From contig NZ_CP007141.1 in the NCBI RefSeq assembly GCF_000816145.1, positions 1,798,001-1,862,000 on the forward strand: a DNA stretch of 64,000 nucleotides. Direction: 5' to 3'. The notes beneath the pieces were generated by a model. The model did not search any database, was not told where the DNA came from, and saw only the letters and a program-made list of their open reading frames with translations. Both the position numbers and the translations under genes were made by a program. The DNA comes from Pseudothermotoga hypogea DSM 11164 = NBRC 106472. Lineage in GTDB: Bacteria; Thermotogota; Thermotogae; Thermotogales; DSM-5069. Below, piece by piece: positions 17,697 to 32,389 of the stretch (position 1 is its first letter; the number at the start of each line of letters is the position of its first letter).

Positions 17697-18563
17697 TCAA
17701 GGCAGGAAGAGCTTTAGATCGCTCACCTCGCTCAAGTATCTTGCAAGGGTCTGATAATCCCTCTTTCTCAGTTTTTCGAACAGATACCTTGCTAAGAGCT
17801 CTCTGTCGTGAGTTTTTTCGTAACCTAGCAAGAGCTCTTGTTCATCTTTTGTCAGATAGTGCAACACTTCGTAGCGCACTGGCTCATGCTCGCTCACGCG
17901 TTCAAGAGACTGTCTGAGTATCCTCTCGAGATCCTCTCTCAAAGTCCCCTTGGGTATGTCGGTCTTGAGATAGAAGTACAAATGTGCACAGAAATCTTTT
18001 GGATTTGCGCACAGTGCGATCGTTCGATCGAAATGGTTCTCGATCTCTTCGAGTGCCATAGTAGCCCGCAGCGCCACATCCATATGTGGATCTCTCAGCA
18101 AAGTTCTAAGATATTTCATGTTCTGTTCCACATTCAATCCCGAAATCACGTTCCTGACGATGTCCCTCACGACCTTCTTCTTCTCCTCAATGCTCCCCAC
18201 GGCCAAGATCGCCTTGATGGGGAGTGTTGATAAAACGTCCTCTTCAACGGTTGTGCGAATTTCGCTCGGAAGCTCAAGCTTAAAGAAACCCTCCAAACGT
18301 TTATTCCTCAACGGCACCACGAGGAAGAACCACGAGAAGGGATAAACCAGCGCGAGCAGCGCCGTTTCGGACAAGCTCTCGAAATTGAAGTAGAACAAAA
18401 CAGTTGAAACAACGATCAGACCAACGCTGAGCGGGATGAGCTCATAGACCAACAGAATCAACGACGAGATCACGGTGAACAAGTTCAGCGCGACCAAGAA
18501 CTTCCTCACCTTCGGCTCGTTCGTCGATTTTTCGTCGGGACGATCAACAAACCTCCAAACCAC
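17697..18563 (-). CDS. PelE-like membrane protein of the Pel-type polysaccharide locus
   Basis: 288 residues. Three to four hydrophobic segments lie near the N-terminus (roughly residues 20-85), followed by a ~190-residue helical, HEAT/TPR-like cytoplasmic part (LRDPHMDVALRATMALEEIE ...). PelE proteins are built from membrane helices plus helical repeats and assist PelD/PelF/PelG. I did not recognise it by sequence; the call rests on architecture and on being the fourth gene after pelF, pelG and pelD. Its GTG start overlaps pelD by 20 bases. It could instead be an unrelated lineage-specific component of the same complex. Confidence 0.55.
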   Translation of the reverse strand: MVWRFVDRPDEKSTNEPKVRKFLVALNLFTVISSLILLVYELIPLSVGLIVVSTVLFYFNFESLSETALLALVYPFSWFFLVVPLRNKRLEGFFKLELPSEIRTTVEEDVLSTLPIKAILAVGSIEEKKKVVRDIVRNVISGLNVEQNMKYLRTLLRDPHMDVALRATMALEEIENHFDRTIALCANPKDFCAHLYFYLKTDIPKGTLREDLERILRQSLERVSEHEPVRYEVLHYLTKDEQELLLGYEKTHDRELLARYLFEKLRKRDYQTLARYLSEVSDLKLFLP

Positions 18564-19752
18564 TGATTTTCACCAACCTCTCGAGCACTCTGGCTTTTCC
18601 GTTACGATCACACACGGGCAACAGCGCCCTCAAAACGACGAAACCGTCCTGCCTTTCTGCGAACAGAACGTCGGTCTTCCTGAATTTGCCAATTACTTCG
18701 TTGTGCAGCTCTGAGCTGTACTTCAAGCAAATCTCCTCGAATGGTATGCCGAACCGATCCTTCCTTTTCTGCAACACTTCCCTCTTCTTGATGTAATATG
18801 TTTCATCCCAAGTGCCATCGTCTTTTTTGTGTTTCATCCGTGCGATCTTCTCTTGTTCAAAGATGATCTTCGCATTGGCGTACATCCAATCTGCGACGGC
18901 TTTGATGTACCTCACAAGCACTTCGGAAAACTTCTCGTAAGGGACATCCTCCACCACCAGTACCCCGAACGGGTTCGACCCCTCACCCATCACGATTGCG
19001 AAGAAAGGCTCATACGAAGTTATCTCTTTCTTCAGCAAGACCCTTGGAAGCGTTGAATAACCATTCTCGAGCGCATCTTCGATCACTTTGGAATGGCTCA
19101 CCTCCAATGCATTCGGCAATTTCTTCGCACCGACTCCAGCGACGAACCTCAGAAACCGCTTCTCTTCGTACCTGTACAAGTTCAGAGAGTCCAGCTCGAA
19201 GAACTGCGCGATGACCTCCACGGCCCTCGTCAGCATCTCGTCGAAATCCAGTATCTCGAGTTCTCTCAACCTTTCCAAGAGGACGATCAAACCTTCGCCT
19301 TCGAAGTATATCCTCGACTGCAGTTGGGTGATAATCACCTTCATTCTCTCGATGCCTTGGATCAAGTCGTTCTTTTCCAACTCGATTTTTTTGATCTCGT
19401 TTCTCAGGTCCCTGATCTGTCTGTTGAAGGTTTCGCCAATGATCCCCACCATCGCACCCACCGCAATGGTGAAGATCCTCAACTCGCTTTCGATAACGAT
19501 CTCCTTCGCAATCAGGGGGAAAACTTCGAAGATCAAAAGACACGAGATAAAGATCAAAAGACCGTATCTCGCAGACCAGAGGAAAACGAGTGCGATTGAG
19601 ATGTACACTGCGATTTTCACGTCGAAATGAAAGCCCTTCTGAGCCAACCAAACAGAGCCCAGAAAGATCAAAAACTCAACGACTTGAAAGATCATCTTCT
19701 GCCAATCTCTCAGTTCTCGAACCTTCTTTCGTTCACTCCTCAACGTTCTCAT
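18544..19752 (-). CDS. pelD: PelD-like c-di-GMP receptor
   Basis: 402 residues: four membrane helices (~25-110), a coiled-coil-like linker (~108-145), a GAF domain (~150-300) and a degenerate GGDEF domain (~305-402). In the last domain the motif RKTD (358-361) stands just before ERQDGF, which replaces the catalytic GGDEF. That is the arrangement of the RxxD inhibitory site by which PelD binds c-di-GMP without making it. It should switch on Pel polymer synthesis by PelF when c-di-GMP rises. It overlaps pelG by 20 bases and the PelE-like gene by 20 bases. Domain layout and neighbours make this a firm call. Confidence 0.85.
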   Translation of the reverse strand: MRTLRSERKKVRELRDWQKMIFQVVEFLIFLGSVWLAQKGFHFDVKIAVYISIALVFLWSARYGLLIFISCLLIFEVFPLIAKEIVIESELRIFTIAVGAMVGIIGETFNRQIRDLRNEIKKIELEKNDLIQGIERMKVIITQLQSRIYFEGEGLIVLLERLRELEILDFDEMLTRAVEVIAQFFELDSLNLYRYEEKRFLRFVAGVGAKKLPNALEVSHSKVIEDALENGYSTLPRVLLKKEITSYEPFFAIVMGEGSNPFGVLVVEDVPYEKFSEVLVRYIKAVADWMYANAKIIFEQEKIARMKHKKDDGTWDETYYIKKREVLQKRKDRFGIPFEEICLKYSSELHNEVIGKFRKTDVLFAERQDGFVVLRALLPVCDRNGKARVLERLVKISGLEVC

Positions 19753-21130
19753 GCACGATCACCTGCCGATTTGCGATCCCTATCTCTCTACGAATGAACT
19801 CGAAGTGCAGAAGATCTTTGTACACCCTCTTGAAACTCAGCCACCCGTACAGTGTGGCAACGGAAAAGCCAACAAGGAAACCCAACGCCGGGAAGGTTCT
19901 CAGGTAGAACAGCGACACCACGAGGTTCACAACAGAAGCCATCATCGCCGAGCGCATGGGTATCTCGGCCAAGTCGAAATAGTACGCCAGCAGAGAGACG
20001 TACAAGAATGCCCCATTGGCGGCCGCTCCGAGGATGCCAAAGCGCAACGCCTTCAAGCTGTACTCGTCGAACTGAAGTGTCCTGGCGATGTAGCCAGAGA
20101 GAGTGAGACCCAAGAGCACGAACACAAACTGAACAGCAAAGATGGTTTTCGTCGTTGAAGAGATGTTGTCGTCCAAGATGCGCTTGTTGATTTTCACGTA
20201 ATTGAGTGTCCTGTTCTCCTCCAACGACTGGTAGAACATTCTGTACTTCAAGTAGAAGTTGGTCTCCAAGCTGAGCACGAAGAGGGTAAGAGTGGGGATT
20301 ATGAACAGATAGGACAGAAACATGGGAATGTCGTAGGATGGAGCGAAGACGAACCCCTTGACGATGGGTTTTCCTATGTAGATCCACGCAACGAAGTCAT
20401 CCACCCAAGCGCCCAGATAGGTCAAGACCCCGGTGATGGCTTGTGATTTGAACCTACGGATCGCCTGCCAGAAAAGTAAGCTTCTCGTTGGTTTTCTTCC
20501 AGTGTACAGGTATCTCTTCACGAACACGTGCAGGAAGAAGAGTATGAACATGAGTCCGAAATTGTAGCCAAGATAAGCGAAGTTCTCGCCTTTGATCTTG
20601 AAGAGTTGCACGCCCATGACCAACCCGAGCACGTTACCCACCCCGAATCCCACCAAGACGGGGGTGAAGACCATCATCGTCGTGACGAAGATCGTCTGAA
20701 CCCACACCACTGTCAGAACGACCAGAGAGTAAGAAAAAAGCAAGAGTTTGAACCAATCGTCGATCCGACTGATAAGTGAGAAAATCGTCAAGAAGACGCC
20801 ACTGGAGAGGACCGCGTACAGCACGGTCGAGGAGTAGAGTTCGTACATTTTCGAAAATTCTTTCCTGTATATGAGATCTGCGAGGTACCTGGTCACAGAG
20901 ATCGACACGCCTCCAAAGAGCAGCGTCGAAAAGATGAAGCTGTACACCACGGCTGAGGTGAAGAAGAGAGTTTCGTTCCTCGGCAGAAGGACTATCAACA
21001 AAAACAGTGTGAGTGAACACATGATCCAAGGTCCCGCGCTCACGTTGGCTGAATAGAAGATGCTGACGATGTCCATCAAAAAAGAGTTTTTCTTCAGAAG
21101 CTTGTTGAGCTCAAAACCTATTCCAGCCAC
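19733..21130 (-). CDS. pelG: PelG-like polysaccharide export/translocation protein
   Basis: 465 residues with twelve predicted membrane helices, of the MOP (Wzx/MATE-related) type. The N-terminus MAGIGFELNKLLKKNSF is the characteristic PelG opening. PelG works with PelD and PelE in the inner-membrane complex that moves the polymer made by PelF. The GTG start at 21130 follows GGAGG by 9 bases and overlaps the pelF end by 20 bases. Confidence 0.9.
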   Translation of the reverse strand: MAGIGFELNKLLKKNSFLMDIVSIFYSANVSAGPWIMCSLTLFLLIVLLPRNETLFFTSAVVYSFIFSTLLFGGVSISVTRYLADLIYRKEFSKMYELYSSTVLYAVLSSGVFLTIFSLISRIDDWFKLLLFSYSLVVLTVVWVQTIFVTTMMVFTPVLVGFGVGNVLGLVMGVQLFKIKGENFAYLGYNFGLMFILFFLHVFVKRYLYTGRKPTRSLLFWQAIRRFKSQAITGVLTYLGAWVDDFVAWIYIGKPIVKGFVFAPSYDIPMFLSYLFIIPTLTLFVLSLETNFYLKYRMFYQSLEENRTLNYVKINKRILDDNISSTTKTIFAVQFVFVLLGLTLSGYIARTLQFDEYSLKALRFGILGAAANGAFLYVSLLAYYFDLAEIPMRSAMMASVVNLVVSLFYLRTFPALGFLVGFSVATLYGWLSFKRVYKDLLHFEFIRREIGIANRQVIVHENVEE

Positions 21131-22514
21131 CCTTGACGACCTCCGTGTACAATTCTCTGTACGCTTCTATCATCCGCTGAAGCGTGTATTTTTCCTTGAC
21201 GATCCTTTTTCCATTCTCAGAAAAGGTCTTCCACAACGATTTATCCTTGGCAAGCAAGATGAGTTTTTCGGCCATGGACACGTAATCACCAGGTTCAACC
21301 ACGAAACCCGATTGACCATCAGGATCGAGCGCGATCTCGGCACAGTTTCCGACGTTGGTTACGACGGTGGGCAATCCACACGCCATGGCCTCGAGTTGAA
21401 CCAAGGGTTGACCTTCGGAGACGCTGCTTATGAGCAGAACGTCCATCATACCGTAATACTTCGACACATCGGCTCGAGATGTGAAAACGACCTTGTCTTC
21501 CAGGCCGAGTCGTCTCACCAGTCCAACACATTTGCTGTAATAGTCTTCGTCTTCGTCGGTGGGACCTATGATGTAGAGTTTCGAATTCGGCACTTCCTTG
21601 ATCACTATGTCGAACGCTTTGATACCCGTCGTTATCCCTTTGATCGGCACGACCCGTCCGACGATCGCGATGTTGAATCCGTCGTGCTCGGTTCTCTGTA
21701 TCTTCGAAAACTTCTCCACGTCGATGCCGTTGGGTATCACGCGCATCTTGCCGAAATCCGCGTTCAATTCCAGCTGGAAGAGTTGATTCTTCTCGAAAAG
21801 GGTTGTCAAAACATCGCACTCCATATAGACCGTCTCGCTTATGAGTCTGAAGATTTCTATCCAGGGTTTCTTGTACACCTCTGGCACGCTTGACGACTTC
21901 GTTATCTCGATCTCCCTCTCCCTGTGGTAGATTCCGTGCTCCGTCACGATCAGTTTTCCTCCGTGAACGTACTTTCCACTCAGAGCGCTGAGTGATGCGT
22001 AACCCGTCGTGGTCGCGTGGTACACGTCGGCTTTCGGTGGGAGCGACTGGATGGCGCTGAGTATGGGGACCATGAAACCTATCACGGTCCAGTAAAAACC
22101 CGTGAAACCCTCCTGAGGAAAGTACTTCTCGTAGATCTCCGTAATGAAATTCCAAAACGATCTTTCTTGCAGCACCCAATCCAAGTGTTTCCCCGCAACT
22201 GAACGGAGCACGCGCGCGAAGAAGTGTGACCTGTCTTCTTTGAGTGCTATCAACTGCCTCACGTTGTCGACAATCTCCTGCTCGTTCAACGAATCTTTCG
22301 ACCTCGAAAAGTCACACGAGAAGAGGAGATACTCATAAATGCGTTTCAAATTCTTCGGCATTTTGTAGCTGAAAGGCCTGTTCCAACGCCAAGGTGCCAG
22401 ATGGACCACGTCGAACTCGATGTCTGGCATGTTTTCGATGAGCATTTGAACCCAAGAAGAAACGCCACCTGTTATGTAGGGATAGGTTCCCTCCACCAGG
22501 ATGCACACACGCAT
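21111..22514 (-). CDS. pelF: PelF-like glycosyltransferase (GT4)
   Basis: 467 residues, cytoplasmic GT-B fold. The N-terminal glycine-rich loop EGTYPYITGGVSSWVQ is the PelF hallmark. The C-terminal half has IVGRVVPIKGI and SSVSEGQPLVQLEAMACGLPTVVTNVG with the E-x7-E-type donor site. PelF polymerises UDP-activated N-acetylhexosamines into the Pel chain. ATG 22514 follows GAGGGA. It heads the pelF-G-D-E-like run; an RsiV-like gene lies 57 bases upstream on the same strand. Confidence 0.9.
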   Translation of the reverse strand: MRVCILVEGTYPYITGGVSSWVQMLIENMPDIEFDVVHLAPWRWNRPFSYKMPKNLKRIYEYLLFSCDFSRSKDSLNEQEIVDNVRQLIALKEDRSHFFARVLRSVAGKHLDWVLQERSFWNFITEIYEKYFPQEGFTGFYWTVIGFMVPILSAIQSLPPKADVYHATTTGYASLSALSGKYVHGGKLIVTEHGIYHREREIEITKSSSVPEVYKKPWIEIFRLISETVYMECDVLTTLFEKNQLFQLELNADFGKMRVIPNGIDVEKFSKIQRTEHDGFNIAIVGRVVPIKGITTGIKAFDIVIKEVPNSKLYIIGPTDEDEDYYSKCVGLVRRLGLEDKVVFTSRADVSKYYGMMDVLLISSVSEGQPLVQLEAMACGLPTVVTNVGNCAEIALDPDGQSGFVVEPGDYVSMAEKLILLAKDKSLWKTFSENGKRIVKEKYTLQRMIEAYRELYTEVVKGGWNRF

Positions 22515-22571
22515 CTCATAGTCCCTCGCGGCCGGTTTTTAATTATTATCGGCTTAAAGTATCTTTAGATG

Positions 22572-23285
22572 TCAAAACGAGAGCTTCAGACCATCTTGAA
22601 ACTTCGACCAAGGAATCGTGATGTCCAAGATTCCAAGCGCGAAAGGGCTAACAACGTATGGTGGAAAGTACAGCGTCAAACCGACTTTAGAAACGGTGAA
22701 AGCGAGCTGTTCCACGTTCAACCGTCGCAGTTCATCCACGGCGTTCGGAAGGAACAGTTCTGGTTGGCTCTTGAACTGTTCAATCAAATATTGTTTCATG
22801 AGTCCTTCGTAGTCGAAAGAGTCGTTGAAGAGATCCTTCAGTTTCAAAATCTTGCGTTCAACGAGATCGACCGTGTAGCTGAAAACGTTCAAATGCTCGT
22901 GTGCTCCACCCGTGTAGTGAGAAACGTAGATGACGCAACTCAAGAGCTCGCCTGACAGGTACGTCACGATCGTTCTGGACCACAAGCTGTAAGGCAGGCT
23001 CGAAGACAGTATCGGATCGTTTTGTACCCATTTCGCATCCTCGAGCACGCGATTCACGAGCAACGTGAACCTTTCTTCGATCTCCCCGTTGAAACTCTTC
23101 GAAAACTCCACATCCTTGGCAATTTTCAACCAAGGTATTCGAAGATCCACCTTGATCAGTTCGTTTTCGAACCTCTTTTCCAAGATCTTCAGCTCGATCA
23201 GATCGGTGAATTCACCTTGAAAGCTCAACGATACAGCTACTGAGATCGGGAGAAAAAGAAAAAAGATCAGGAGCAGCTTTCTCAC
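22572..23285 (-). CDS. Exported DUF3298/DUF4163 (RsiV-like) protein
   Basis: About 237 residues. A signal peptide or anchor (VRKLLLIFFLFLPISVAVSLSF) is followed by a fold with the motif SHYTGGAHEHLNVFSYTVDL, typical of DUF3298, and a C-terminal IPWSKFQDGLKL. Such domains occur in RsiV and in the N-terminal part of PdaC-type peptidoglycan deacetylases. Here there is no deacetylase domain. The start GTG 23285 is 8 bases from AGGAG. Placed directly before pelF, it may act outside the membrane on the polysaccharide or wall; this is inference. No anti-sigma helix or sigma gene is present. Confidence 0.65.
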   Translation of the reverse strand: MRKLLLIFFLFLPISVAVSLSFQGEFTDLIELKILEKRFENELIKVDLRIPWLKIAKDVEFSKSFNGEIEERFTLLVNRVLEDAKWVQNDPILSSSLPYSLWSRTIVTYLSGELLSCVIYVSHYTGGAHEHLNVFSYTVDLVERKILKLKDLFNDSFDYEGLMKQYLIEQFKSQPELFLPNAVDELRRLNVEQLAFTVSKVGLTLYFPPYVVSPFALGILDITIPWSKFQDGLKLSF

Positions 23286-23400
23286 GCTCACCACTCCTGA
23301 TCGATATTGTATCATCTCGTCATAGGTAAAAGAGTTCAGACACCTTACTCTTCATTGTGGAGGCAATTGTGGAAGGCAACACCTATTGTCGTACGAGACG

Positions 23401-23454: not shown

Positions 23455-24858
23455 TTACCCCCTGTGCCAGTAAATCTCGATACCTTTGTATTTCTCCAGG
23501 GCTTCTTTGATAGCTTTGGCCGCTCGTGAGAGATTGATCGCCACATGGTGTTCAAAACCGTTTGAACATATGTAATTCATGAGCTCCTGCAAATTCTCAA
23601 CACGAGCGATACCCCTCGAACCAAAAGTTTTTGGATCCTCAGGAACTATTTCACCTTCCCCAACGTATCCTATGAGCTTACCTTCAAGATCGTTACTGGA
23701 CAATCTGAAGAACGTGAACGGACCAGACTTGATTTTTCCCGCACAAGCTCCATACGCGTTCTGACTACCGACGGTTGTACCTATCACATCGGCAAACTTT
23801 ATCTCAGCGCTCTCATACACGGAGATTGGGAAATTCCCACAGTGGAACAGAATTGCTTCATCGTCTGAAGTGTAATTGTTGTTCCAATCGACGATCGCTG
23901 ATGGCTTGCCTGAAGCCGCTTGTAATATGTACATGGAGAGAGCTCCCATCACGTCGACTTCGCAAGCGCTCGGCTTCAATCTTTCGCTCAACAAACTCAT
24001 AACTGTGCACGGAGTGATGTGCAACTGTTTTTCCAGGATCGTCCAGCACTGTATCGAAACGGCATCTATTTCATTCTCCTCTAACCACCTTTCCAGGACT
24101 ATGGACAATTTCGCCATCGTCTCCAAAGCTTCTCTTGGAACGATCCGAACCACATACTTTTTCTTGACATCCTCGATCCACTGATCGATCTTCTCTTGAT
24201 CGTTGATCTGTTGGATTTTGAAAAGTATCTCGGACAGGTCTATAGTTTCCACGCTCACTCCAATAGCTTCAAGCAACTTCTCTGAGAACCTAACAGTGTT
24301 GAACGCGTTCGGACGGGCCCCAACTGCTCCAATTCTTACTCTCTTTAAGGATCTCACAATGTTGCAGACGCTGGCAAACCATTTTATATCTTGCTCGAAG
24401 AACATCGAATCGATGTCCTCAGTGTGTTTTGAAGTCAGAGAGAAAGGAATACCAAACTGCTTGAGGTTATTGCAGACAGATATCTTTCCGCAGAAACTAT
24501 CCCGCCTGTGGGCTAAATCAAGCTTTTCAGGATCGTCATTGAAGGCATGAACAAGCACCGGAACGTTCAGACCACTCATCTTTATCGCCTGTGCGATCGA
24601 TTTTTCATCACCAAAATTCGGTAGGGTCACTATGATCCCGTGGATGTTACTCGCGTTTTCAGCAAACAATTTCGCACATTTTTTTGCATCCGCAAAAGTC
24701 TCCACTGCTCCCAATTTTGTGTCCGCTGGTGATAGGCAGACGACATCGAAGCCCATTTCTTCGAGCTTTTTCATGATCTTCTCTCTACCGGAAGCAACCA
24801 GAGAATCTGGAAAGAAGTCCCTGTTTCCCACGATCAAACCGAAACACATCTTCTTCAT
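23455..24858 (-). CDS. Sugar isomerase of the L-fucose/L-arabinose isomerase superfamily
   Basis: About 467 residues. The overall pattern (GLIVGNRDFFPDSLVASGREKI at the start; GIIVTLPNFGDE; QCWTILEKQLHITPCTVMSLLSE; ACEVDVMGALSMY; DWNNNY) matches the Mn2+-dependent fucose/arabinose isomerase-like proteins. Glu and Asp in CEVDVMG and a late His (EHHVAINLS) fit metal and substrate sites. It should convert an aldose to a ketose for the FGGY kinase encoded just upstream. The start ATG 24858 is 8 bases from GAGG. It is the last gene of the operon. The substrate is not assignable from sequence; I recall T. maritima 'fucose isomerase-related' genes in the same context. Confidence 0.75.
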   Translation of the reverse strand: MKKMCFGLIVGNRDFFPDSLVASGREKIMKKLEEMGFDVVCLSPADTKLGAVETFADAKKCAKLFAENASNIHGIIVTLPNFGDEKSIAQAIKMSGLNVPVLVHAFNDDPEKLDLAHRRDSFCGKISVCNNLKQFGIPFSLTSKHTEDIDSMFFEQDIKWFASVCNIVRSLKRVRIGAVGARPNAFNTVRFSEKLLEAIGVSVETIDLSEILFKIQQINDQEKIDQWIEDVKKKYVVRIVPREALETMAKLSIVLERWLEENEIDAVSIQCWTILEKQLHITPCTVMSLLSERLKPSACEVDVMGALSMYILQAASGKPSAIVDWNNNYTSDDEAILFHCGNFPISVYESAEIKFADVIGTTVGSQNAYGACAGKIKSGPFTFFRLSSNDLEGKLIGYVGEGEIVPEDPKTFGSRGIARVENLQELMNYICSNGFEHHVAINLSRAAKAIKEALEKYKGIEIYWHRG

Positions 24859-24868
24859 GTCCTTCACC

Positions 24869-26341
24869 TCACACTCTAAGAATGGCCCTCTGAACAGCTT
24901 CTTTCCAACCTCTTATACATTTTTCTCTATCTACTTCCCTCATTTTGGGATAGTAATACGTGCGCTCAACTTCAAAGTTCCTTGGATCGATCACTCCCAT
25001 TTTCTTCGCTGCCAACAGTGCAACTCCCAAGGCGGAGCAGTCTTCGAATTTGTTCACAGCGACGGGCACGTTCAAGATGTCAGCTTGAAACTGCATCAAG
25101 AACGTGTTCTTTGTGGCGCCCCCGTCAGCTCTCAGTTCTCGCGGTGTAACACCTGCCTCTTCGCACAACGCGGTGAAGAGATCATAAACCTGATAGGCAA
25201 TTGATTCAATGGCGGCCCTCGCAATGTGAGATTTGTTTGTTCGACGACTCATACCACATATCAGCGCGCGCGCATCGTTTTCCCAGTATGGTGCGCCCAA
25301 ACCAACGAAAGCTGGGACAAGGTAAACACCGTCGTTGTCTTCGACCGATACTGCGAGTCTTTCAATTTCTTCGGCTGAACTTGCCAGCCCCATCTGCTCA
25401 ACGAGCCATTTGATCGTGTCACCGGAACTGTGTATGTTACCTTCGACAACGAAATCGACTTTGCCTTCCTGGGACCAACCGACTGAAAGAACCCCAGATT
25501 TTAGCCTCGGTTTGGTGTCTTTGACATTTATCATGATGGATGTGCCCGTGCCATAGGTCGCTTTCGTATTTCCTAAATCGAACCCGAGCTGTCCATAGAG
25601 AGATGCACTCGAATCTCCCATTATACCCAATATTGGAACCGCGTGGGGCAGGATTCCATCAAGATCTGTATAGCCAACGACATAATCGGAATCGACCAGA
25701 GCGGGCAATCTTATTCCGGAGATTTCGAAAATATCGATCAATTCTTCATCCCACTTCAGTGTGTTTATATTCAAAAGGAGTGTCCTACTCGCGTTTGAGT
25801 AGTCGGTGACGTGCGCCTTTCCTTTTGTTAGGTTCCACACCAGCCAGCTGTCTACCGTGCCGACGTACGAATCGCCTTCGAGCAGCTTTTCCTTGACTTC
25901 CTTCACGTTCTTCACGAGCCATGTTATTTTACTCGCTGAGAAGTATGGGTCGATCAACAACCCTGTTTTATCCCTCACGATGTCGGCGTATCCTTTGTTT
26001 CTCAGTGATTCGCATATTTCTTTTCCCCTTTGACACTGCCATACAACTGCGTTGTAAAGTGGTGTGCCGCCACCATCCCAGACCACGATGGTCTCGCGCT
26101 GATTGGTTACTGAAACAGCCAGTACCTTGCCTTTTGGAACGCTATGAAGAACCTCGTGACAAGCCTCGTACGTTCTTTTCACTATCTCGATTGGATCGTG
26201 TTCAACCCAACCTGGCATAGGATAGTACTGCTTATGATTCTTCGTTGCTTTCGCTACCAAATTCAACTTCGTATCGAAAAGAAACGCTTTTGTCCCTGCA
26301 GTACTCTGATCGACTGAGAGAATGAACCCCTTATCTTCCAT
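24869..26341 (-). CDS. FGGY-family carbohydrate kinase (glycerol-kinase-like)
   Basis: 490 residues, two actin-like ATPase domains: phosphate-1 motif SVDQSTAGTKAFLFD, YGTGTSIMINV and adenosine motif DGGATKNTFLMQFQADIL. It resembles glycerol kinases (QRETIVVWD; GLLIDPYFSASKITW; VYLVPAFVGLGAPYW). The context (isomerase, transketolase, sugar importer) argues for a ketose or pentulose kinase rather than glycerol catabolism. ATG 26341 follows GGAGG. It overlaps the C-terminal transketolase gene by 11 bases and leads into the isomerase gene with an 11-base gap. Confidence 0.82.
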   Translation of the reverse strand: MEDKGFILSVDQSTAGTKAFLFDTKLNLVAKATKNHKQYYPMPGWVEHDPIEIVKRTYEACHEVLHSVPKGKVLAVSVTNQRETIVVWDGGGTPLYNAVVWQCQRGKEICESLRNKGYADIVRDKTGLLIDPYFSASKITWLVKNVKEVKEKLLEGDSYVGTVDSWLVWNLTKGKAHVTDYSNASRTLLLNINTLKWDEELIDIFEISGIRLPALVDSDYVVGYTDLDGILPHAVPILGIMGDSSASLYGQLGFDLGNTKATYGTGTSIMINVKDTKPRLKSGVLSVGWSQEGKVDFVVEGNIHSSGDTIKWLVEQMGLASSAEEIERLAVSVEDNDGVYLVPAFVGLGAPYWENDARALICGMSRRTNKSHIARAAIESIAYQVYDLFTALCEEAGVTPRELRADGGATKNTFLMQFQADILNVPVAVNKFEDCSALGVALLAAKKMGVIDPRNFEVERTYYYPKMREVDREKCIRGWKEAVQRAILRV

Positions 26342-27290
26342 GCGAAAGCCTCCTCAAAAATGCCTGGACCCTCGTGGCAATGCCCACTGAATCGAGACCG
26401 TAGTGTGAGAAGACTTCCTCCTGTCTTCCAGTTACGGGAAATTCGTCAGGTATAGCTATGATTTCTACGGGTACAGGAAAGTTGTTCCCAAGAACGGCCG
26501 AGACCGCTTCACCTAAACCTCCGTGAACGCTGTGTTCTTCAACTGTAACGACCTTACCGGTCTTCCGAGCAGATTTTATTATTATCTCCTCGTCGATTGG
26601 CTTTATGCTCGGCATATCTATCAAAGTAGCCTCGACGCCCTCTTTAGATAAGATTTCACAAGCCTTCAGCGCATGCCAGACAACTTCACCACAAGCAATG
26701 ATGGTCACGTCAGATCCGTTTCTCAGAACATACCCTTTAGCGATCTCGAAGGACGGTTGATCGTAAACGAATGGTATCGGGTTCCTACCGATCCTTATGT
26801 AAGCGGGCCTTTCTCTGTTGACGATGTGTTTGACAACGGCGTAGGCCTGATTTGCATCGGAGGGTAATATCACGTCCATGTTTGGTATGGCACGAAAAGC
26901 CGCTATGTCGTGCAATGCGTGGTGGGTACTGCCAAGAGGACCATAGCTCACACCACCGCTGACGCCTATGATCTTCACGTTCGCCCCAGTATACGCCACA
27001 TCGTTTTTGACCTGCTCAAATGCCCTCGCCGAATAAAAGCATGCAGGTCCAAGAACGAACACTTTTTTACCACAGAGAGCGAGTCCGGCTGCAATACCAA
27101 CCGCGGACTGTTCAGCTATCCCAACTTCTATCGCTCTTTCCGGGAAGGTGTCGAAGAATTTCGTAATCGCCGCTGATCCACGCGCATCGGAGGTGACAAC
27201 CACGATCGTTTCATCTTCCCTTGCCAACTCCATTAGAGCTTGAGCAACCATGTGCCTTGATGCCATTTTTGATTTCTCACTCATGGGCAT
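26331..27290 (-). CDS. Transketolase, C-terminal subunit (split type)
   Basis: 319 residues: pyrimidine-binding domain (MASRHMVAQALMELAREDETIVVVTSDARGSA ... VGIAEQSAVGIAAGLALCGKKVFV, with the conserved Glu of the GIAEQ motif activating thiamine diphosphate) and the C-terminal domain (ACGEVVWHALKACEILSKEGVEATLIDMPSIKPIDEE). It pairs with the N-terminal subunit encoded next to it. ATG 27290 follows GGAG, overlapping that gene by 14 bases. Split transketolases are common both for normal pentose phosphates and in specialised sugar pathways. Confidence 0.9.
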   Translation of the reverse strand: MPMSEKSKMASRHMVAQALMELAREDETIVVVTSDARGSAAITKFFDTFPERAIEVGIAEQSAVGIAAGLALCGKKVFVLGPACFYSARAFEQVKNDVAYTGANVKIIGVSGGVSYGPLGSTHHALHDIAAFRAIPNMDVILPSDANQAYAVVKHIVNRERPAYIRIGRNPIPFVYDQPSFEIAKGYVLRNGSDVTIIACGEVVWHALKACEILSKEGVEATLIDMPSIKPIDEEIIIKSARKTGKVVTVEEHSVHGGLGEAVSAVLGNNFPVPVEIIAIPDEFPVTGRQEEVFSHYGLDSVGIATRVQAFLRRLSHGR

Positions 27291-28116
27291 CGAGCTCCTT
27301 CAGCCTTTCGTCCAGTTCCATCATCGCCATTCGCAACTCCTCATCGTTTGGAACTTTGTGGTGCCAGTCTTTGTTGTTCTCGATGAAGGAAACACCTTTG
27401 CCCTTTATAGTATGTGCAATGATAAGGTGTGGTTTCCCCCTCTCAACTGGTAAACCTTTGAAGGTGTCGATCAAGCGTTCTATATCATGGCCATCGACGT
27501 GGATGACATGCCAGCCAAACGCTGTCCATTTCTGCTCAAGGTTCTCGAGTTTCAGGATCTGTTCCGTGTCACCGCTTATTTGAAGTCTGTTTCTATCCAC
27601 AATCCCGATGAGGTTGTCCAGACGATAATGAGCAGCTATTTGAGCGGCTTCCCACACAGAACCTTCGTCGAGTTCACCGTCACCCATTAACACGTAAACC
27701 TTGTAACCGGCAGACTCAATCTTGGCAGCGATCGCCATGCCAACTCCGACCGCCAAACCATGTCCAAGAGCACCGGTATTCACTTCCACTCCGGGAACCT
27801 TCGTTGTGGGATGCCCTGTTAAATAGGATCCAAATTGACAGTAACTCTCGAGGTCACTAACCGGAAAGAAACCGAGATCAGCGAGAACAGCGTAGTAGCT
27901 TTCGACACTATGGCCTTTGCTCATAATGAACCTGTCTCTATCAGGCAGTTTGGGGTTCTTCGGATCTATTTGCATGACCCCATAAAAGAGACTGAGGAGG
28001 ATCTCGACACACGAAAGCGATCCACCAGTATGGCCACTCTTCGCCCTGTAGATCATTTCAAGGACCATCTTTCTGATTTGTACTGCTTTCTTTTTCAACA
28101 TTTTGGTCTGTTCCAT
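27277..28116 (-). CDS. Transketolase, N-terminal subunit (split type)
   Basis: About 279 residues, the diphosphate-binding half of transketolase: SGHTGGSLSCVEILLSLFYGVM, HPTTKVPGVEVNTGALGHGLAVGVGMAIA and the thiamine-diphosphate motif GDGELDEGSVWEAAQIAAHYRLDN (GDG...N). It moves two-carbon ketol units together with the C-terminal subunit. ATG 28116 is preferred over GTG 28119. It is the first enzyme gene after the transporter genes, starting 4 bases before the permease stop's end, so it belongs to the same transcript. Confidence 0.92.
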   Translation of the reverse strand: MEQTKMLKKKAVQIRKMVLEMIYRAKSGHTGGSLSCVEILLSLFYGVMQIDPKNPKLPDRDRFIMSKGHSVESYYAVLADLGFFPVSDLESYCQFGSYLTGHPTTKVPGVEVNTGALGHGLAVGVGMAIAAKIESAGYKVYVLMGDGELDEGSVWEAAQIAAHYRLDNLIGIVDRNRLQISGDTEQILKLENLEQKWTAFGWHVIHVDGHDIERLIDTFKGLPVERGKPHLIIAHTIKGKGVSFIENNKDWHHKVPNDEELRMAMMELDERLKELDAHE

Positions 28117-28119
28117 CAC

Positions 28120-29160
28120 TCATTCACGTCCTTTTCCAATCCTCTCAGCGATCACCGCAGCTATGATTATGAAACCTTTCGCAACCTGTTGCCAGAAGGG
28201 TGAGACACCCGTCAGAACAAGACCGTTGTTGAGTACACCTATGATCAACGTTCCTATAATCGTTCCTTCTATCGTTCCTTTGCCTCCCGACAGAGAAGCA
28301 CCACCTATCACGGCGGCCGCTATGGCATCCAGTTCATACATCAATCCCGCGTTGGGTTGCGCCGAATCGAGTCTTGCCGTAACGATCAACCCCGCAACTG
28401 CTGCGAGGAAACCCGAGATCATGTACGTTATGAGCTTCGTTCTCTTTGCATTCACTCCAGAAAGAACCGCGGCTCTCTCGTTACCGCCAACCGCATAGAC
28501 GTATCTTCCAAACCTTGTGAATCTTAGAAAAACAGATGCTACAACCGTTATGACTGCGGCAATCCAAACGGGGGTGGGTACACCGAGAATCCAGCCAGAA
28601 CCTATGAAGTTGAATGTTTCACCAAGCTTCGTTATGGGATAACCCTTGGTCCAGAGCATTATAAAGCCTCGCACAGCCGTCATGGTACCGAGGGTCGCAA
28701 CGAAAGGTGGAACGCTGAACACCGTTATGATCAACCCATTGAGAAGTCCTATGGCAAGACCAACTATCAGCGCTATAATGGAAGCGCCCAAGACACCGAA
28801 TTGGAGAACAACCCCAAAAGCAGTAAGAGACAGGCCGTACTTGAGCAACTTTGCTGCTACGGCACCGGTGAAACCAAGAACAGATCCAACAGAAAGATCG
28901 ATACCGCCGGTGAGTATCACGTACGTCATTCCGATCGCCAAACATAGATTGACCGAGCTCTGCCTCAGTATGGTCCACAGGTTTCCCGGCGTTACAAAAC
29001 GATTGCTGAGTATCGCAAAGATTACAAAGAGACCGCCCAGAATGATCAGTGACTGGTATCTGGAAATTGACCTGAGGTCAAAGGCTTTTTTCTGTGCTTC
29101 AACGGAAGGCACCATTTGTGTTTGATTGTCAACCTTTTGGCCGTTCTTCTGCATTCTCAC
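28120..29160 (-). CDS. Ribose-type sugar ABC transporter permease (RbsC-like)
   Basis: 346 residues, about ten membrane helices, preceded by a ~35-residue polar N-terminus. The family motif GGIDLSVGSVLGFTGAVAAKLL and the closing GGASLSGGKGTIEGTIIGTLIIGVLNNGLVL are RbsC/CUT2 hallmarks. It forms the channel for the ATPase and binding protein encoded upstream. The GTG at 29160 lies 6-7 bases after AAGGAG; ATG 29154 is the alternative. Confidence 0.9.
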   Translation of the reverse strand: MRMQKNGQKVDNQTQMVPSVEAQKKAFDLRSISRYQSLIILGGLFVIFAILSNRFVTPGNLWTILRQSSVNLCLAIGMTYVILTGGIDLSVGSVLGFTGAVAAKLLKYGLSLTAFGVVLQFGVLGASIIALIVGLAIGLLNGLIITVFSVPPFVATLGTMTAVRGFIMLWTKGYPITKLGETFNFIGSGWILGVPTPVWIAAVITVVASVFLRFTRFGRYVYAVGGNERAAVLSGVNAKRTKLITYMISGFLAAVAGLIVTARLDSAQPNAGLMYELDAIAAAVIGGASLSGGKGTIEGTIIGTLIIGVLNNGLVLTGVSPFWQQVAKGFIIIAAVIAERIGKGRE

Positions 29161-29181
29161 AGCACGCTCCTTCCCGGGAGG

Positions 29182-30738
29182 TTAAGACGATGCTGACACC
29201 AATCTGAAACTTCTTGGGATCGCCGCCTTCAAGAGTTTCTCTTCGCTGGCCTCTTCTTTTGTGAATTCTGCTGTTTTCTTTCCTTCTGACATGACCATGA
29301 TCCTGTCAGACATGGCCAGGACCTCCGGTAATTCTGAGGACACCAGCACTATACCGAGCCCGGCCTTGGCAAGCTCACTGATCAGTGAATACAGCTCTGA
29401 TTTTGCATTCACATCGATGCCTCTTGTAGGTTCGTCGAGCAGTAGTACCTTTGGTCTCAAAGCCAGCCACTTCGCAAGTACGACCTTCTGCTGGTTCCCA
29501 CCACTCAGGTTCTCAACGAGTTGGTTCAACGAGGTCGTCTTTATACCAAGTTTCCTGACGTATTCACGTGCGAGATCTTTCTCTTGATTCATGCGGATGA
29601 ACCCGAATCTGGAGAGATTCTTCAAGTTTGGAAGGGAGAAATTGAGAAGAACCGTCAGTTGCAGAATCAAGCCCGACAGTTTTCTGTCTTCTGGAACATA
29701 ACCGATTCCGGCTTTTATCGCATCTGCGGGAGTCCTGATCGAAACCTTTTTTCCCTCGATGAAGACATCTCCACTGATTCTACTCGGATGGTGGAAGCCG
29801 AATATGGCTTCCATGAGCTCTGTTCTTCCCGCTCCAATCAATCCGTATACACCGAGGATTTCACCCTTTCGGACAGAGAAAGACACGTTGTCCACTATCA
29901 GGTCTTCCCTATCAGGATCCAATACCGACATGTTTTCGACGCGCAGTACTTCATCTCTTATCTCGCTCTGTCCCTTCACATAGAATTGTTCGATGCTTCT
30001 ACCAACCATGAGTCGCACAACGTCATCGTACGAGAAATCCTTGATATCGCCCCGAGCGACAAGTTTACCGTCTCTCATTATCATGATTTCGTCGGCTATC
30101 GCGAAAACCTCGTCCAGCTTGTGTGATATATATAAAATGGCTTTGCCTTGCTGCCTCAGATCCCGCACTATCTCAAAGAGATTCTCGATTTCTTTCTCAC
30201 TTATGGCTGAAGTTGGCTCATCCATGATGATTATCATCGCCTGGCTTGCCAAAGCCTTGGCGATCGCGACCAATTGCTGTTGGCCGGTGCTGAGATCTGC
30301 CACTTTTTTCTTAGGATCAATCCTGAGGCGTACCCTCGACAACAGATCCTTAGTCTCCGCGTACATTTTTCTGTAATTCACGAATCCCCAAAAATCAAGT
30401 GGTTCCCTGCCCAGGTGGATATTCTCCATCACGGTCAAATTCGGTACAAGATCGAGCTCCTGTGGTATCAACACGATGCCAGCATCAATCGCTTCTCGTG
30501 GATTCTTGAAGTGAACTTCTTTCCCTTTGAGGAACATTTTCCCAACGTAATCAGAATAAACTCCTGCGAGAATTTTCATCAGGGTTGATTTACCTGCACC
30601 GTTTTCCCCCACTATAGCTGTCACGGTCTCTTCCTTCACGGCAAAAGAAACATCGTTCACCGCCACGACACCAGGAAAGGTTTTCGTTATGTTTTTCGCC
30701 TCGAGGATGACTTTAGTATCACCGATCGTGCCATTCAT
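29182..30738 (-). CDS. Ribose-type sugar ABC transporter ATP-binding protein (RbsA-like)
   Basis: 518 residues: two fused ABC domains as in CUT2 importers. First domain: [40 protein letters not shown]. Second domain: [14 protein letters not shown] (degenerate Walker A, usual for RbsA), [15 protein letters not shown] and [13 protein letters not shown]. It energises uptake through the RbsC-like permease. It lies 6 bases after the DUF2291 gene. Confidence 0.92.
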
Positions 30739-30744
30739 GTCGGA

Positions 30745-31386
30745 TCAGTAACCTCCTTGGCTCAACTCGAGTCTTAAAGGTATGACGTTGATCGGGTATT
30801 TGATGGGATCGTCCTTGAGAACGTTGAAAAGGCCCAGAAATTTGATGACCGCCCCCTGAACGTTTGCTCCTTTCAGCGAATTGATAAGTGGTAGGGCCAC
30901 TTCATCGCGAACGATTTGATTCAGCGCCGTAGAAACCAGATTGAAGTCCATGATCCTATCAAAATCTTCCATCTTGATGATCCCCGTTGCCATAACGATC
31001 GTGTTGCCAAACACGCGGGATGTGATGTAAAATTCAGGTCTTTCGGAGTCAGGGCGCACCTGCACCAAAATGCCGTCTTCATCGACGGAAACGATCTGTC
31101 CTGAACCCTCCACTATGTAGTACCTGTAGTTCGATACACCAACGGTCTTAGCGAACTTCTCGTGCGCTTCTTCAGGATTGATGTCAAAGGTTTCAAGCAC
31201 CTCGTAAGCGTCGGCTTTTTTAAGATCTGCCAGCTGACTTTGCAATTTAGGCCAAACAACAGTTTGTGCATAAGCTTTTGGGTCAAAGCTCGCTTTGATT
31301 GAGCTCAACGGCACCACCTTACAGGATCTGTATATCAAAAACGCTGCCAGCACGATCAATGACGTCAGGATGACTCTCTTTCTCAT
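30745..31386 (-). CDS. DUF2291 family predicted periplasmic protein
   Basis: 213 residues. One N-terminal hydrophobic segment (VILTSLIVLAAFLIYRSCKVVPL) ends in a cysteine that only loosely fits a lipobox, so it is an anchored or lipid-modified exported protein. The rest (FDPKAYAQTVVWPKLQSQL ... ARDEVALPLINSLKG-like VRDEVALPLINSLKG) matches DUF2291, a family found next to ribose-type ABC importers and probably aiding uptake. The start at ATG 31386 follows GGGGGAG; the longer frame upstream overlaps the hairpin and is rejected. No activity is known. Confidence 0.75.
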   Translation of the reverse strand: MRKRVILTSLIVLAAFLIYRSCKVVPLSSIKASFDPKAYAQTVVWPKLQSQLADLKKADAYEVLETFDINPEEAHEKFAKTVGVSNYRYYIVEGSGQIVSVDEDGILVQVRPDSERPEFYITSRVFGNTIVMATGIIKMEDFDRIMDFNLVSTALNQIVRDEVALPLINSLKGANVQGAVIKFLGLFNVLKDDPIKYPINVIPLRLELSQGGY

Positions 31387-31402
31387 GAATGCTCCCCCAA
31401 AG

Positions 31403-31429
31403 CACCCCGAGCCAAAGAGGCCCGGGGTG
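31403..31429 (-). other. Intercistronic hairpin after the binding-protein gene
   Basis: CACCCCG-a-GCC / GGC-c-CGGGGTG with loop AAAGA lies in the 49-base gap between the binding-protein and DUF2291 genes. There is no T-tract. It probably protects the upstream mRNA 3' end and lowers expression of the downstream genes, as is usual after binding-protein genes. Confidence 0.6.
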
Positions 31430-31435
31430 TCAAAT

Positions 31436-32389
31436 TCACTTGCGTCCGTAAGGTGCGTACTTCTCGATGTTCTCAGTTGTGACGAGTTCGACAGTGACTG
31501 GGACAATTTCTGGGAACTGCCTTTCGCCTCTGAGATACTGGTCTGCCCACTCAGCCGCGAGTCTCGACATCAGTTTCGGAAATTGCATGATCGTTGCGAC
31601 GATTTGTTTGCCTTCCTGAATCGCGTAAATCACATCTTCTGCGCCGTCGAACCCGAAGATGTAGATGTCTTTCCTTCCAGCTGCCTCAACAGCTTTCAGA
31701 GCACCCAGAGCCATGGCGTCGTTACCGCACCAAATTGCCTTTATCTCTGGATGCGCCTGAAGTATTTGTTCCGTCACCTTGAATCCGGTGTCCCTGTCGA
31801 ACTCTGCACACTGCTGAGCCACCATCACAAATTCTTTGTAATTGTCGACGACAGAGTGGAAACCGTTCGACCTGTCCCACGTTGGTTGAGCGCTGAGGAT
31901 TCCCAACAGTTCCGCATACGGTATCGTCTTCATGTCCTTGAACTTTTCCTTCATGAATTTGACAAAGTATTCGCCCATAAGCACGCCACCGTAGTAGTTG
32001 TCAGAATAAATCTGAGCTACTGCCAAACCTCTCGCGTTGATACCTCTGTCGATGCAGAACACTGGGATACCTGCTTCTTTTGCTCGCCGAACATTAGCAA
32101 TCGAACCATCTGCATCTGTTGGATTGAAAAGGATTGCGTTGAAACCAGCCGCGATGATCGTGTCGAAGTGAGCAGATTCCTTTGCTGTGTCGTTTTGAGA
32201 GTCAAAGACAGTCACTTCGTAACCAAGCTCTTCTGCCCTCTGTTTTGCTGCGTCAGCAAGCACAACGAACCACGGGTTGTTCAGCGTAGAAATGACGACT
32301 GCAACCTTCCCCTTAGACTCAGCAAAGACACTGGTGACTCCTACGAGGAAGATAGCCGCGACGACCACCAGAACGATCAACCTTCTCAT
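31436..32389 (-). CDS. Ribose-type sugar-binding periplasmic protein (RbsB-like)
   Basis: 317 residues. A signal peptide ([23 protein letters not shown]) is followed by a type I periplasmic-binding fold: [79 protein letters not shown] and FGFDGAEDV. It captures a sugar for the RbsA/RbsC-like importer. The sugar cannot be read from sequence. The gene overlaps the LacI gene by 4 bases (ATGA). Confidence 0.9.

Follow-up and report, generated by a model that had tools for sequence, protein, structure and literature searches.

The window analysed here is a stretch of 64,000 nucleotides from the genome of Pseudothermotoga hypogea (G000), which is complete as a single contig of 2,165,416 bases (2.17 Mb; completeness 99.97 %) and which has Pseudothermotoga sp. 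RSWP20 as its closest relative with a name. All five open reading frames proposed for the locus were confirmed at their positions on the minus strand. Four of them, in the order pelF-pelG-pelD-pelE, occupy 17697-22514 with adjacent genes overlapping by 20 bp, and the fifth, encoding an exported protein with PdaC and DUF3298 domains, lies 57 bp upstream of pelF (Table 1). An Rfam search of the locus returned no element, and promoter and terminator scans found nothing above chance level. Further upstream, at 23455-32389 of the window, is a sugar-import/kinase cluster (ABC sugar transporter, kinase and transketolase-like halves), also conserved beside pelF in a congener (G061) that is represented by a fragmented MAG, 81 % complete.

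Table 1. Features of the pel locus, in positions of the window
Feature	Position	Strand	Length	Description
pelF	21111-22514	(-)	467 aa	GT4 glycosyltransferase
pelG	19733-21130	(-)	465 aa	inner-membrane Pel exporter
pelD	18544-19752	(-)	402 aa	membrane c-di-GMP receptor
pelE-like	17697-18563	(-)	288 aa	about 2 TM helices plus helical repeat
DUF3298 protein	22572-23315	(-)	247 aa	exported, PdaC/DUF3298, RsiV-like
pelF/pelG overlap	21111-21130	(-)	20 bp	where an f2 g6 relative has the PelA deacetylase gene

PelF scores 310 bits against NF038011 (cut-off 100, E 3.5e-92) and matches DUF3492 with an E of 2e-77, and residue alignments show that the catalytic EX7E and GRxxxxK motifs are both present. 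PelG matches PF16933 with 329.7 bits (cut-off 29, E 4.1e-98) and has about 12 hydrophobic segments by hydropathy. PelD gave a sub-threshold GAF match and no domain above threshold in Pfam, and is recognized by its architecture of TM segments, a GAF domain and a degenerate GGDEF domain with an RKTD I-site at residues 358-361. The six best PDB matches of its AlphaFold model (Foldseek) are all P. aeruginosa PelD, and the PelD family profile matches the PelDs of other phyla with an E of 3.1e-20. Both R358 and D361 of the RxxD I-site are invariant in 23 Thermotogota PelDs, and the ten GGDEF domains encoded in the window's genome indicate a capacity for c-di-GMP. The sequence-only reading had placed PelF, PelG and PelD in one Pel-type operon; the curated HMMs together with the fold and profile of PelD bear this out.

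The same reading had put a two-part membrane/helical-repeat protein in the PelE position, next to pelD, and this placement appears correct. The AlphaFold model of the protein (pLDDT 82.7) has approximately two TM helices followed by a helical repeat, and a profile-to-profile comparison with the protein in the PelE position of proteobacteria gives a probability of 94 % (E 1.4e-7). A search of the model against solved structures returned no match. The assignment as a putative PelE is supported by profile comparison and layout.

To look for PelA we searched the complete genome. Neither the Pfam model nor a phylum-specific profile finds a DUF2194 protein, and genome-wide searches find no GH114/GH191 hydrolase and no CE4 deacetylase. 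A weak GH114 match at G000:C1:1043683 was rejected, as it belongs to a 612-aa GHL6-like protein. Since all of these searches are negative in a complete genome, PelA is missing genome-wide within the reach of the DUF2194, GH114/GH191 and CE4 models, which confirms the absence noted earlier and, within the same reach, rejects a PelA elsewhere in the genome. An assembly gap is likewise rejected as the cause: the genome is a single contig, and the pelF-pelG junction is the same in a second genome, with pelF of G061 passing directly into pelG on one contig (same junction in L042/L003). No PelB- or PelC-like gene was found within the window's pel locus.

We surveyed 103 Thermotogota genomes, and PelA-less loci were counted within this phylum. 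PelG is found above cut-off in 40 of the 103 genomes, DUF3492 (PelF) in 41 and DUF2194 in 35; by list comparison all 35 DUF2194 genomes carry PelG, and they make up 35 of the 40 pelG-bearing Thermotogota. DUF2194 adjoins pel genes at most Thermotogota loci, and most pelG-bearing genomes that have it also encode a TM1410/GH191-type hydrolase. The Thermotogota DUF2194 family matches the solved B. cereus PelADA (PDB 9ZAU) with an E of 9.1e-28; the catalytic DDF, HxxxH (HGYNH) and HxDD (HPDD-type) motifs align with 9ZAU and are present in most DUF2194 rows. A DUF2194 gene is contained in the pel operon of Cetobacterium too. On this sequence evidence we identify Thermotogota DUF2194 as the predicted PelA deacetylase (PelADA, CE26). 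The TM1410-like gene has a GH114-type fold, now named GH191; the T. maritima GH191 enzyme is inactive on galactosaminogalactan oligomers, and a different GH191 enzyme cut Pel. T. maritima, our control genome, has PelG, DUF2194 and a GH191-type gene.

These results change how the missing components are to be read. That PelB and PelC are absent is real but not special, as locus-level inspection found neither in any Thermotogota pel locus mapped, and Gram-positive Pel systems do without them as well. The absence of PelA holds for the window's genome but not as a trait of Thermotogae, whose pelG-bearing members mostly have it as separate DUF2194 and TM1410-like genes, so that the oddity is the loss of these genes from the window's genus and from one further lineage. 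PelG without DUF2194 occurs in the window's genome, in G061 and in three genomes of family f10 (G053, G054, itself incomplete, and G055). A protein of about 530 aa in G053 with a weak DUF2194 match was rejected because the match reaches no further than the profile's N-terminal part. This distribution suggests that PelA was lost at least twice in Thermotogota, separately in the f10 genomes. A PelG scan of genome contigs returned the congener as its sole match.

Several unusual arrangements were encountered among the mapped loci. Three f3 g13 loci (L040, L044 and L069) hold two tandem pelG-pelD-pelE-pelF sets arranged around a single DUF2194 gene and a single GH191 gene; the two sets have deeply diverged PelG copies. 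The pelG gene is apparently truncated or split in L049 (G067) and L048 (G075) (260 aa; 203 + 298 aa) and pelE is short in G067, defects that are possibly frameshifts or sequencing errors. In plasmid loci from Deinococcus and Streptomyces (L105 and L106), the protein after PelF is an unnamed one in place of an annotated PelG, and sugar-nucleotide genes and an endo-polygalactosaminidase are also present. A small helical protein with a membrane anchor, 128-235 aa long and belonging to no Pfam family, separates pelE from pelF in f10 and in some of the f2 loci (c7 in L053, L056-L059, L061-L065, L067 and L070; c40 in L033, L034 and L045) and is absent from the window.

The exported protein encoded upstream of pelF had been noted as RsiV-like and as lying in a spot that another component could occupy. 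It matches DUF3298 (E 5e-11) and PdaC (E 1.2e-9), which we take to be the non-catalytic domains of these families; it does not reach the RsiV equivalog (32.3 bits against a cut-off of 250), and a search for Polysacc_deac in it was negative. It is not a PelA. The DUF3298 domain occurs in 47 of the 103 Thermotogota genomes, many of them without pel, and it neighbours pelF in G061 as well as in the window and at no other pel locus. With the association confined to the window's genus, we rejected the protein as a Pel component, and a role as a replacement component does not hold at the family level.

In phylogenetic trees, PelG and PelF of the window both nest within the f2 g5/g6 clade, apparently Fervidobacteriaceae, with a support of 100/100 and apart from G057 of the same family as the window's genome; in the PelF tree the window's genus groups with three g5 genomes (97/97). 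PelF is 67-76 % identical to the f2 g5/g6 clade compared to 44 % to G057. One f2 g6 locus (L037, in G076) has the order F-A-G-D-E, while the g5 genomes carry F-A and G-D-E as separate loci. Given this nesting and the F-A-G-D-E locus, the simplest account is probably that an F-A-G-D-E operon was transferred into the window's genus and that A was then lost. The GC3 of the window's pel genes is 0.63-0.72 compared to 0.52-0.57 in three neighbouring genes, and since the known f2 loci are AT-richer than these pel genes, no sampled genome is an obvious donor. Between the window's genome and G061, the four pel genes have dN/dS values of 0.09-0.24 and three neighbouring genes values of 0.07-0.13, showing that the operon is maintained under purifying selection.

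The Gram-positive operon pelDEADAFG of B. cereus ATCC 10987 (PMC7112168, PMC13254593) shares PelD, PelF, PelG and, putatively, PelE with the window, has no PelB or PelC and is gated by c-di-GMP through PelD, as we predict for the window; unlike the window it has a PelADA (CE26), which must be catalytically active for Pel to be made. P. aeruginosa pelABCDEFG has the PelD fold and I-site, PelF, PelG and the PelE layout in common with the window, which lacks its bifunctional PelA (GH166 + CE21), its porin/TPR protein PelB and its PelC. Other Thermotogota pel loci (for example L037, L054 and L063) have the same D, E, F, G set without PelB/PelC, but most add the PelADA-like DUF2194 and the TM1410-like GH191 protein. 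Like the window, the f10 loci have D, E, F and G without DUF2194; they differ in their order (D-E-c40-F-G), their distant position in the PelG tree and an extra small membrane gene, and G053 retains a GH191 gene elsewhere in its genome. Pel operons in Thermotogae have been mentioned (PMC7112194), in a study that also reports Gram-positive loci in which pelF and pelG alone were detected and which may lack PelA. Thermotogae go unmentioned in the PtPelA paper (PMC12022489), a literature search returned no paper on a P. thermarum PelA, and we found no paper describing DUF2194 as the PelA of Thermotogota or the loss of PelA.

We hypothesize, with a confidence slightly above even, that the operon encodes a c-di-GMP-gated Pel synthase and exporter, derived from a transferred operon that lost pelA, and that its polymer is left fully N-acetylated and uncharged. 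PelD would bind c-di-GMP through its RxxD site and activate PelF, which would polymerise a UDP-N-acetylhexosamine (UDP-GalNAc by homology); PelG would move the chain across the inner membrane while PelE holds the complex together, and we infer that the polymer then passes through the toga. The product that defines a Pel system is an alpha-1,4-GalNAc/GalN polymer. The donor would have been of the Fervidobacteriaceae type, with pelA, the DUF2194 deacetylase gene, lost from between F and G. Loss of the deacetylase would make the polymer probably fully N-acetylated and uncharged, so that, of the two possibilities raised by the sequence-only reading, a polymer that is not deacetylated is the best supported. 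Against this reading, Pel is undetected in P. aeruginosa (PMC10269871) and B. cereus (PMC13254593) when the deacetylase is catalytically dead, and G053 retains a GH191 gene despite lacking PelA. It has been proposed that the PelA hydrolase degrades acetylated Pel (PMC10269871). The absence of the GH191 hydrolase gene along with the deacetylase fits this proposal: with both PelA activities gone, acetylated Pel could persist.

Deacetylase activity was required in both tested systems (PMC10269871, PMC13254593) and CE families are diverse, our search having covered the CE4, DUF2194 (CE26) and GH114 models, so a non-orthologous deacetylase elsewhere in the genome could yield ordinary, partially deacetylated Pel. 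We consider this unlikely, as CE4 and DUF2194 are absent from G000 and the operon holds no candidate. Somewhat more doubtful is a change in the specificity of PelF, by which the operon would make another polymer, one for which deacetylation is unnecessary. Asp293 of PelF, directly after the invariant Lys292 of the catalytic region, is nearly invariant across phyla and is Gly in the window's genus only, and in the window's PelF Gly likewise replaces Lys409, a residue that is conserved in Thermotogota. These two substitutions came from a scan of 84 conserved columns in which one control pair gave five, and are thus weak evidence; moreover, the second PelA-less lineage (G053-G055) keeps Asp293, and the PelF is otherwise close, at the identities given above, to f2 PelFs whose genes are accompanied by a PelA gene.

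It is very improbable that the operon is a remnant in decay, without any product. Although other bacteria make no Pel once pelA is lost and pelG is absent from three other members of the genus, every gene is intact with tight overlaps, the dN/dS values are near those of the neighbouring genes, and the I-site of PelD and the GT motifs of PelF are kept.

Returning to a maintained synthase without PelA, we tentatively extend this reading, at less than even confidence, to two thermophile lineages that would independently run deacetylase-free Pel synthases and export a neutral, fully acetylated polymer of the poly-GalNAc type; in the window's lineage, the loss of both PelA activities would have been accompanied by the change in the PelF signature. 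If true, deacetylation would be required by the PelA hydrolase or the export machinery and not by the synthase. PelA deacetylase activity is regarded as indispensable for Pel in the two bacteria studied and has been proposed as a drug target; in Thermotogota, DUF2194 is the predicted form of this enzyme. As Pel is not made without the deacetylase in other bacteria, a maintained PelA-less operon is a natural test of this rule and makes the requirement for the deacetylase directly testable.
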